A DNA stretch of 64,000 nt from Macrocystis pyrifera (taxonomy: Eukaryota; Sar; Phaeophyceae; Laminariales; Laminariaceae). Below the pieces are notes generated by a model. That model made no database searches. It was not told the origin of the DNA and saw only the letters and a program-made list of their open reading frames with translations. Where the stretch lies: contig JASSKH010000010.1 in assembly GCA_031763025.1 (NCBI GenBank), positions 7,581,427 to 7,645,426 on the forward strand, written 5' to 3'. Below are positions 5,901 through 64,000 of the stretch, one piece after another. The stretch's first letter is position 1. Every line of letters starts with the position of its first letter. The translations under genes and the position numbers were made by a program.

Positions 5901-8900
5901 GTACATGCGGGCGTCGCGCGCTGTCGAGAGGGCTCAGAAGGAGGAGAAGGAGAAGGAGCGGAAGGAGAAGGAAGACGAGGAGGAGATGGAGACGATGGGG
6001 GGGGGTACTGAGAAGGAGGAGGAGGTAGAGGATGGCGGGCAAGGGGAAGAGCGCGCGGAGGAGGAGGAGAGAGAGGACAGAGTTGAAGCGGAAAATGATG
6101 AGGAGGAGCGGCAGGGGACGATAGAAGAGGAGCACGAGGACGAGGAGGAAGAGGAGGAGCAGGCACCCGCATCTTCTCGGACGAGGGCGAGAATAGCTGC
6201 GAGCGTGCCTGTCGCCGACCGGATTGGCCACGAAGCAAGCGGGAACCGGAGAGGCTCCTCCCGGAATTCAAGCGTCGCCGCAGGCCCGATCGGATGCACG
6301 CGCCCAGACGGTACTCGCGGCCGTCTAGGGAAGAACGCCACCGGTGCCGCGGTAAGGTCGAAGCGTTCGCGGAGCACTCCGGCGAGCATACCGCGGAGCG
6401 CCCTAAGTGGTGTCAGTGGCGGCGCTAGCAACAGCAAGAGCACTAACGCCGAGGCCGACCTGGACGGGGCGGTCTCTGACCGGGGACGATTGAATCGCGT
6501 TCCTTCTTTTGCTGCCGCGGCGGCGGCCCGAGAAGGGAGAAATCAAGCTAGCGCGGACTTTGCCGAACGGGATCCGCAGCAGCAGCAGCAGCAGCAGCAG
6601 CAGCGGCAGAGGCAGCGCGAGGTCCTCCCACCGCAAACAATGCCGTCGGAGCCAGATACCCGTGTCAGCGATAGCGACGGTAGCGATTATACCGACCACA
6701 ATGGCGGCGGCAGAGACTTTAGCGACGACGGTGGTAGCATCACCACCCCGATACCTGCGCAAAAGCGGTCGGCGGGTTCGCTTGTGGCTATGGCGAGGGG
6801 GGGGGGCACCAGCCAGCAAGACCAAGGCCAATGGTGGCGATCGCGCGGGGTCCGCGGCGAGAGACGTAGAGCGGGAGGGGCGTGAGGGTGGGGGTGGACA
6901 GAGGCGAGGCGTTGCGGCCGGGAGGAACAAGCCTGCGAAGAGGGTCGAGGTACGCTGACATAGGTAACGACGGTAGCGGCGGTGTATCGATCACGGTAAA
7001 GGTGACGATGATGGTGACGGCAGTGGTAAGCGTTGAGATCTGCTACCCCACCTTAGACTTCGGAGGAAGTGTCACCCTTCCGCCCACCCCCTGTCACACG
7101 AGCGAGGAGCTTTAAAGTACCCCCCCCCCCCCCCCCCCCCTTCCTCGCCCCACTCACACACACCCCTCCCATCTACGTCTCCTTCCAACGTCACGCGCGA
7201 CGTTTATACACCATCTTCCGGTGAGCCATGGCAATCGATCGAAACCCTCCCTCCCACGCCGTCCCCCTTTCACCGCGCACTCCCTGTTCTAGGTGAGTGA
7301 CAACTTCGTCCGCATGGACCTCAAGAGCAGAGGCAGCAGCCGCTTCAAGCGCAAAGGCAGCAACCGAAGCAAAGCCCGGGGGGGCTCCGGCGGCAGGGGT
7401 GTCGGGGGGCGGTGGTCTTCGAGGGGCGGGAGGGGCGGCGGCTTTGGGAGTTCGAAGTGGGGGGGCGGACGTGGGAGGGGGGGCAGCGGCGGAGAGGATC
7501 CCGTGACGGGGGAAAAGGGTGTGCCGCGCGACAGGCCCCTGTCTTCCGGCGCTGCTAAGAACCGGGCGGGTTTGGACGTGCTGGATCAGGTGAGCGACGC
7601 GGATGCGGTGGTTGAACTTGAATTTTTCATTGAGGTTGAAGTTGAATTTTAGGTTGATGTTGAATTTGAAGTTGGAGTTGAAGTTGACGTTGAAGTTGAG
7701 TTCGACGTTCAAGTTAAAGATAACAATTGAGGTTGAGGGGTTCGTGGTGTTGGTGTTGGCATGGTGGTATTGGTGTTGGTTGGTGATGGTGGTGGTGGTA
7801 TTGGTGTGGGTTGGTGAGGGTGTTGGCACTGGTAGTGGTGGTGTTGGTAGTAATGTTGATGTTGGTGTGGGTGTTGTTATTAGTGTTTTGGTGGTGGTGG
7901 TGGTTGGTGTAGTTTTGGTGTTGGTGCTGATGTTGGTTTTGGCGCTGGGTTTGTGTTCGGGGCGACCTGTTGTTGTTGTTGTTGTCGATAATTTACGATG
8001 GCACGTATATCGTCAAACAGCTTCGTGGACAGATAGATCAACGGTGTGCATTGAAACACTACTGGATGCAACAACACCAACAACAGCATGATGCACCAAC
8101 AGTTCGTCTTGTACGTCATCGTCGTGCAAGGCCGTCGGTGTACTGGCATCAATTTATAGCAGCAACAGCAGCAGCAGCAGCAACGACAATACCATGTCAA
8201 CAACAGCGACGACGAAACAACAGCAGCAAAAAGAAGAAGAAAATAGCAACAACAACAACAAGCACATGTGTAACCGCAATCAGCGTGTGTAACAAGAGGG
8301 TGAACGTGCGCATGTTCTGACTACGGCAGTGCCTGGACGCACTAGCCGTCGCCAGCGGAAACAAAGGAGAAGGAGAGGGCCAAGGCTCCAGCGGTGGCGG
8401 CGGCGGCGACGGTGGCGATGGCATTAGCGGCGAGAGAAACGTTTGTTCCTTCAAGCGTCCAAGGTCAGTACTGCCGCCGGACGAGAGGCAAGCTTCACGT
8501 AATCCAGCACAAGCAAAGCGCTCCGCCGATAGGAGATAGGGAGGGAGGGACGGACGGACGGACGGAGGGAAGGAGGGAGATAGAGAGGAAGGGATGCAGG
8601 GAGGGGGGGGGGGGGGGAGAGGAGGAGGGAGGGGGAGGGAGGGAGGGGGGGGGGCGGGGGGCGGGAGAGAGGGAGGGAGGGAGGGAGGGATCACCGCTGA
8701 TAAACTCTGGTGCTACTCCGCTGAAAGCCGTTTTGGCGTGGGTAGAGTTTTCGTTTATCATCGCTTCTGCGCACGCTCTTGTTGCTGCTTGTACTGCTGC
8801 TGTATCTACTGCTGCTGTGTGCTGTATGTGCCGTCCACAGCGTATTTACTGTGCTCTACCTACCGCCCTGCTACCGTATCTACGACAACTACTGAAATAC

Positions 8901-63341: not shown

Positions 63342-64000
63342 GTGGGTGGGTGGGTGCGTGTGTTGGCTGTTGTTGGGTGTCATTCAAACATGTCAGGAGG
63401 CAGCACTTTCACCGCTTGACAGACAGCGACTCTGCCTTGACGTGCCTTGACTGACACCAAAGTATTACAGGTTTTAGAGCGGAAAACTCGGCCCTACACC
63501 CGTCGACAGCGCACGTTTCGCAATTTGCTTGGCACGTCTCTTGACATATTTGGTGTCACTGGGTGTTGGGATTGGTGGGAGCGAGATGGGGGGGTGGGGT
63601 GTTGCTGGGGTGTGTGTTGTGGTGCTGTGGTACTATTCGTGTTGCGCTTGGGGTGGGCGAGGATTAAGGGGAGGGGGGGGGGGGGGGGGGGGCTCATGTC
63701 ATGTATGACCGCAGTCGTATGTGGTGGGGTTTTGGGAGGTGTTTTCGGGTGTTGGTGTTGGGACAGGCTGGGGTGTGCGGGGTGGGGGTTGGCGTTTTGC
63801 TTCGGGGCGGGGCGGGGGTTGTGGTGTTGCCGTGTTTGTTGATGGGGTGGAAGGGGTCAGGGGGTGGGTGGGATATTAGTGGTGTGCGTTCGGGTTGGGG
63901 TGTTGGCGTGTTCGGGCGTTTGGGGTTGGGTGTCTGCGGGCGTTGGGGTGCTCGGGGTGTAGGGGTGTCGAGTGTTGCGGTGTTTGGTAGTGGAGTCAGG
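63342..64000 (+). other. PLAA intron 10, start
   Basis: G/T-rich GGGGTGTTG-type repeats with a ~28-nt G run (63665-63692) and an antisense SINE C end (63690-63722). No exon seen before the window ends. Confidence 0.7.

Follow-up and report, generated by a model that had tools for sequence, protein, structure and literature searches.

LINEs that insert into simple repeats include DONG, which is targeted to (TAA)n, and TRAS, which is targeted to (TTAGG)n (PMC2887409). In the brown alga Ectocarpus, RTEX-N1_Ec32 is a non-autonomous, RTE-X-dependent element of approximately 600 bp with more than 6000 copies, and LINEs are often 5′ truncated; the introns, which exemplify the long, transposon-rich introns of brown algae and show little visible cost, are rich in short LINE-type elements (PMC12477816). 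Introners are mobile elements found within the introns of protists and algae (PMC9860276). In human introns, C-rich motifs located approximately 30–80 bases before the acceptor cooperate with G-rich motifs, and can also silence splicing or act near the donor (PMC2481429). The polarity of G and C runs in the kelp introns analysed below is better explained by exon-edge tracts combined with targeted retroposons than by pairing between intron ends.

The window, a stretch of 64,000 nucleotides of Macrocystis pyrifera DNA, corresponds to C190:7581427-7645426 of the assembly searched, which comprises 223 contigs totalling 537,376,219 bases. Models were built for three genes: on the plus strand, a RecQ-type helicase gene, whose exons, joined by hand, match RecQ 1oyw (E 3.6e-52), and a PLAA-like gene with WD40 and PFU domains, and on the minus strand a RanBP1-domain gene. 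Together these contain 17 modelled introns that are flanked on either side by coding evidence and have GT (in one case GC) and AG ends; the models rest on this coding evidence and the splice ends, and the stretch 6950-17600 was left out. Each splice site named in the original prediction was recovered within one base. The GC-AG intron is P2 (56078-57401; GCAAGT...ACGCAG). The window also contains a 100 N assembly gap at 29380-29479, diverged GAA/CTT-rich repeats with spacings of approximately 12 bases at 7590-7727 and 28444-28706, and a palindromic element of approximately 115 bp at 19 places (for example 14958-15072, 29765-29877 and 62582-62695), which has the ends TATTACGGGGG...CCCCCGTAATA and is likely to be a short inverted-repeat transposon. 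The introns carrying runs of eight or more G or C (G8+, C8+) or copies of two repeat families, A and B, are as follows, with distances in bases.

R1, RecQ-type helicase gene, 17602..19507, plus strand: G11 418 from the donor; C runs 402, 227, 135 and 41 from the acceptor; sense copies stacked before the acceptor, B 19144-19200, B 19220-19265, A 19293-19335 and B 19379-19448
R2, 19655..20752, plus strand: C11 251 from the acceptor; no G8+ run; sense A pieces 20075-20319 and 20392-20426
R3, 20924..22311, plus strand: G12 103 from the donor; C16 and C13 170 and 138 from the acceptor; sense A 21664-21798 and full-length sense B 21902-22126, the latter with a C-run duplication ending CCCATGATAAT
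R4, 22475..23302, plus strand: G12 and G24 114 and 173 from the donor; C38 26 from the acceptor; two sense A copies, 22967-23114 and 23131-23240
R5, 23611..25212, plus strand: G9, G15 and G12 within 110 of the donor; C runs 27-203 from the acceptor; 27-base antisense A fragment 23644-23670; sense A 24333-24835, B 24842-24989 and A 25026-25118
R6, 25330..26186, plus strand: G21 123 from the donor; C13 and C15 54 and 107 from the acceptor; in the first half, three more C runs 457-578 from the acceptor and sense B 25622-25683
R7, 26347..27537, plus strand: G13 and G10 199 and 213 from the donor; C runs 45-311 from the acceptor; antisense full-length A 26569-27066; sense B 27324-27397 and 27416-27483
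M2, RanBP1-domain gene, 40507..41735, minus strand: G12 73 from the donor; nearest C8+ run 224 from the acceptor; antisense A fragment 41682-41721, 14 from the donor
M3, 37513..40092, minus strand: G10 34 from the donor and C20 21 from the acceptor, neither with an A or B copy
M4, 33683..37384, minus strand: C12 37 from the acceptor; no G8+ run and no copy
P1, PLAA-like gene, 55158..55957, plus strand: G42, G14 and G9 47, 90 and 133 from the donor; no C8+ run; antisense A 55299-55345
P3, 57486..58026, plus strand: C27, C9 and C8 275, 124 and 46 from the acceptor; no G8+ run; sense B 57904-57968, with C9 directly 5′ of the copy
P5, 58979..59409, plus strand: G14 99 from the donor and C33 47 from the acceptor, paired in the minimum-energy fold; no copy
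P7, 61496..63102, plus strand: C50 32 from the acceptor; no G8+ run; antisense A 61584-61872, 88 from the donor

The original prediction that introns run G-first and C-last proved real. Across the 17 introns, all 16 G8+ runs fall within the first half (binomial p 3e-5) and 26 of the 31 C8+ runs within the second (p 2e-4), although the runs cluster and both p values are therefore optimistic; six-base runs divide 31:6 between first and second halves for G and 44:10 between second and first halves for C. Its wording, "most introns", was generous: a G8+ run starts within 200 bases of the donor in nine of the 17, a C8+ run ends within 80 bases of the acceptor in ten, and three (P2, P4 and P6) carry neither kind of run. 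Two of the examples given also do not hold as stated, as the sequence after 61495, though rich in G, contains no G8+ run, and the C run placed 20–80 bases from the acceptor at 40506 is 224 bases away. In the 200-base ends of the 17 introns, 8+ runs of the wrong polarity are absent (no C at donors, no G at acceptors). Base composition is skewed as well, with G at 0.46 versus C at 0.13 from +60 to +100 after the donor, and C at 0.55 versus G at 0.12 from −30 to −60 before the acceptor; the skew fades by approximately 200 bases, and the run polarity by 200–300 bp, from the exon. The polarity is tied to exon edges, with C runs preceding and G runs following the exon on either strand. The minus-strand gene, which had been taken to show that the polarity follows transcription and not the chromosome, provides no evidence on this point, because a G-first, C-last order is its own reverse complement and reads G...C on both strands.

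Complementary runs at the two ends of an intron could pair in the pre-mRNA, unite the splice sites and be selected as a pair. The fold of P5, in which G14 lies on C33 with an energy z of −2.85 against shuffles, is of the kind expected, and six of the 17 introns carry both kinds of run close to their ends (8-base runs wholly inside the 200-base end windows: donor G in eight, acceptor C in 11, both in six). However, over 42 introns the co-occurrence of G and C runs is not significant (6-base runs, p 0.21; 8-base runs, p 0.16), and in the 17 introns folded, own ends form a mean of 68.9 cross pairs, whereas ends taken from different introns form 71.4 and ends in swapped order 70.4. Moreover, when the possible stem in a human intron that carries both G-rich and C-rich enhancers was broken, splicing stayed near the wild-type level (PMC2481429). 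Pairing is seen in the P5 fold; as the origin of the polarity it is unsupported and very improbable.

Exon edges elsewhere in the genome were sampled as matches to Helicase_C (PF00271) and Kinesin (PF00225) with 1500-base flanks. The 60 loci were reduced to 54 by removing L016, which represents the window, and five others that overlap or are nearly identical, and distances were counted from the ends of the Pfam matches rather than from true splice sites. Within 200 bp of these 54 exons, C8+ outnumber G8+ runs 19:2 upstream, and G8+ outnumber C8+ runs 11:2 downstream. Taking one nearest run per side gives 13:2 and 8:2 (p 0.0009), and six-base runs give 36:6 and 26:2. By halves, 30 intervals separating adjacent kinesin or helicase exons, some of whose loci are also among the 54, show the polarity weakly (G 7 first to 5 last, C 9 last to 5 first; 16 intervals without any run); near the ends of 25 single-intron intervals, the donor side has G 4 and C 1, and the acceptor side C 5 and G 2. 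Splice-site words, which do not single out real splice sites, were counted by strand over the whole genome without overlapping matches. The donor word AGGTGAGT gives G8:C8 of 69:30 versus 46:63 for the backwards control (p 9e-5), and the acceptor word TTTGCAGG shows no significant polarity (C8:G8 of 49:50 versus 51:71; p 0.28). The 1500-base flanks of the 54 exon loci, among L009-L066, also contain 118 T8+ versus 35 A8+ runs on the transcript strand, both near to and far from exons.

Local BLAST and profile searches delineate the two repeat families, A of approximately 500 bp and B of approximately 225 bp. The sense 3′ end of both reads ...GAGTAC(A/G)C, usually followed by a C run. Copies are 3′-anchored and 5′-truncated: outside L001 and L016 there are 147 profile matches, of which 127 reach the 3′ end, and among copies required to do so lengths range from 28 to 529 for A and from 49 to 229 for B. 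Four full-length or nearly full-length copies lie in the window outside the modelled introns.

53195..53702, minus strand: full-length A, used as search query, with a C-rich stretch 3′ of the copy
42720..43248, minus strand: full-length A immediately preceding the first exon modelled for the minus-strand gene, and in sense orientation relative to it
45315..45537, minus strand: full-length B
54370..54584, plus strand: near full-length B, with C8 before and C25 after

Genome-wide, family A gave 47 matches in the best 40 of 5338 candidates scored, and one exact tail word was counted 427 times, with an even split between the strands, versus twice for a backwards control. Eight arbitrary 4-kb stretches (32 kb) contain 15 runs (12 C, 3 G) and three A or B copies. 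In the window, copies are concentrated in the 17 introns (0.89 per kb versus 0.15 elsewhere), and 28 of its 78 runs of eight or more lie within 30 bases of a copy in matching orientation. No match was found when two loci with full A copies were searched against Rfam or when IMG/VR and GTDB contigs were scanned for one A word. Pfam searches of frames over the A copy L002 gave nothing, and those over L008 gave one match below cut-off, which was taken as chance; one of two frames of a random stretch matched nuclear protein Es2. A reverse-transcriptase element is very abundant, with RVT_1 matched in 150 of 150 candidates scored from 7470 at first look and with open frames of up to 1299 amino acids (for example C190:1927088-1927921), and is a possible partner of A and B.

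The orientation of the copies depends on their position. Among the 21 profile-detected copies in the 17 introns, a count that leaves out the sub-threshold 27-base fragment at 23644, first halves hold four antisense and two sense copies and second halves 0 and 15 (p 0.0025). Within 300 bases of the 54 exons, nine sense copies and one antisense copy lie upstream, and none and seven, respectively, lie downstream, so that the tail side faces the exon in 16 of 17. Introns such as R5, which has an antisense A fragment at its start and a sense A copy at its end, and R7, with antisense A and sense B, resemble a single introner or inverted-repeat transposon that has inverted ends and supplies its own splice sites. 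In most introns, however, copies occur at one end only, and several are stacked in the same direction with unequal lengths and 3′ anchoring; the splice sites lie outside the copies, the 21 of which are 14–513 bases from the exon they face. This reading was dropped because the copies are mostly unpaired, 3′-anchored and truncated, and its probability is close to negligible.

The flanks of the copies are markedly C-rich. Long-enough, non-duplicate flanks were available for 111 of the copies reaching the 3′ end, a set that is not random, as 28 loci were chosen for being full-length relatives of a single window copy and many of the rest are adjacent to exons. A C6+ run occurs within 40 bases past the 3′ end in 93 of the 111 (G6+ in none) and within 60 bases ahead of the 5′ end in 76 (G6+ in one). 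For the 28 full-length copies, C7+ runs are present in 23 of the 5′ flanks and 24 of the 3′ flanks, and G7+ runs in neither. Some A and B copies have target-site duplications of variable length, as expected of non-LTR retroposons. By eye, duplications starting in the C run were recognized at seven of the 28 (L007, L092, L093, L098, L099, L101 and L106), and exact-match duplications of at least 11 bases occur at four, versus three of 756 mispaired flanks. A score that discounts C gives only a small excess (13 of 111 at 12 or above versus 191 of 2775, some of the 13 being simple repeats); for most insertions the evidence therefore comes from C-only flanks, which give no date.

At several full-length copies the duplication begins in the C run and extends into unique sequence, examples being CCCCCCCCCCAGTGTTTTC, which flanks L098 on both sides, CCCCCCCCCCAGACACG at L092 and CCCCACCTTACCGGT at L007. 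The 5′ copy of such a duplication belongs to the pre-insertion site, and the C run was therefore there first. Like simple-repeat-targeted LINEs, A and B copies combine a pre-existing repeat as target with an orientation fixed by that repeat. Target-primed reverse transcription by a LINE on a nicked G-run strand would predict duplications linked to C runs. Judged from their flanks, A and B elements insert into C runs with the tail side to the exon, duplicating the run, which would at least partly be a target that existed before them. The suggestion that poly-C-tailed retroposons underlie the polarity is thus borne out as regards the elements and their tail-to-exon orientation, and has to be amended as regards the C run, at least part of which is target rather than tail.

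Runs also occur without elements. At the 54 exons, runs lying more than 30 bases from any A or B copy are distributed C15:G1 upstream and G8:C2 downstream. Because these share the polarity, the elements probably follow an asymmetry that was already present, the exon-edge splicing-type tract is probably older than the elements, and strand-biased retention, which had been offered as a cause, is not required. Every C or G run near an exon might instead be the tail or target of an old, mostly decayed copy, with no host tract at all. Within the 17 introns, 20 of 47 runs of eight or more do adjoin a recognized copy, and since copies as short as 28–60 bases exist, still smaller remains are expected; decayed copies could account for some plain runs. 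As a complete account, this is quite improbable, as it gives no reason why the polarity points at exons, the base composition itself is skewed at splice sites, and six-base runs are also polarized.

We consider it probable, with appreciable doubt, that two layers, exon-edge splicing-type tracts and C-run-targeted A and B retroposons, explain the intron polarity. In the first layer, exon edges would be G-rich for approximately 200 bases past the donor and C-rich for approximately 150–200 bases ahead of the acceptor, and homopolymer runs would expand and be maintained there, for the most part with this polarity. In the second, for which orientation and flanks are observed and the chemistry is proposed, the non-autonomous A and B would insert at C runs by target-primed reverse transcription, with the nicked G-run strand as primer and the RNA end ...GAGTAC(A/G)C(n) annealing to it; because the G-run strand primes, the sense strand of the element would be the C-run strand. 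Duplication would take in the run and some bases beyond it, so that C runs flank the copy and form targets for the next insertion. As insertion orients the element to the C strand and doubles the run, insertions would stack, as at 19144-19448 and 27324-27483, and the fixed orientation would place sense copies before acceptors and antisense copies after donors, with the tail side to the exon.

Selection alone could give the same picture if copies and runs arose both ways near splice sites and those that disrupt splicing, G before acceptors and C after donors, were purged. Wrong-polarity runs are indeed rare, being present in none of the 17 window introns at eight bases and numbering 2 versus 19 and 2 versus 11 at the 54 exons. 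Nevertheless, copy orientation is already fixed by the C run in which the copy sits, G runs being found in 0 and 1 of the flanks of the 111 copies, so that, given the polarity of the runs, purging is not needed for the copies. It may explain the plain runs; as the sole cause it is unlikely.

If the two-layer explanation is true, an exon-edge homopolymer target with fixed orientation would explain how introns can grow beside splice sites without losing them, and C-run targeting becomes a testable source of strand asymmetry. It also calls for caution in interpreting G runs, C runs or folds at intron ends as signals, since targeted insertion can leave them as by-products.

By analogy, the kelp tracts may act like the human G-rich and C-rich splicing enhancers, which are motifs of 3–4 bases proven by mutation, whereas the kelp tracts reach 50 bases (PMC2481429). 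Unlike introners, A and B copies sit inside introns without supplying splice sites (PMC9860276). RTEX-N1_Ec32 resembles A and B, by comparison of descriptions, in being brown-algal, short and non-autonomous, but its description, in the excerpt used, includes neither a C-run target nor an orientation relative to exons (PMC12477816). RTE elements at microsatellites in Lepidoptera also share with A and B 5′-truncated copies beside simple repeats and target-site duplications; there, however, the repeat is the 3′ end of the element and the sites are not sequence-specific, whereas the run at A and B copies is at least partly target (PMC2887409). DONG and TRAS are like A and B in inserting into simple repeats and hence in having a fixed orientation (PMC2887409). 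A and B differ from them in their target, C homopolymers scattered over exon edges.

In fish, complementary repeats at intron ends reportedly help splicing. The kelp introns likewise have complementary low-complexity tracts at both ends but differ in showing neither significant co-occurrence of the two nor better-than-chance pairing. In the literature searched, which was covered in part, the combination of a C-homopolymer target, a fixed orientation and exon-edge polarity was not found. The kind of element is known, and the combination appears to be new: a homopolymer-targeted non-LTR retroposon that rides on the asymmetry of splicing tracts.
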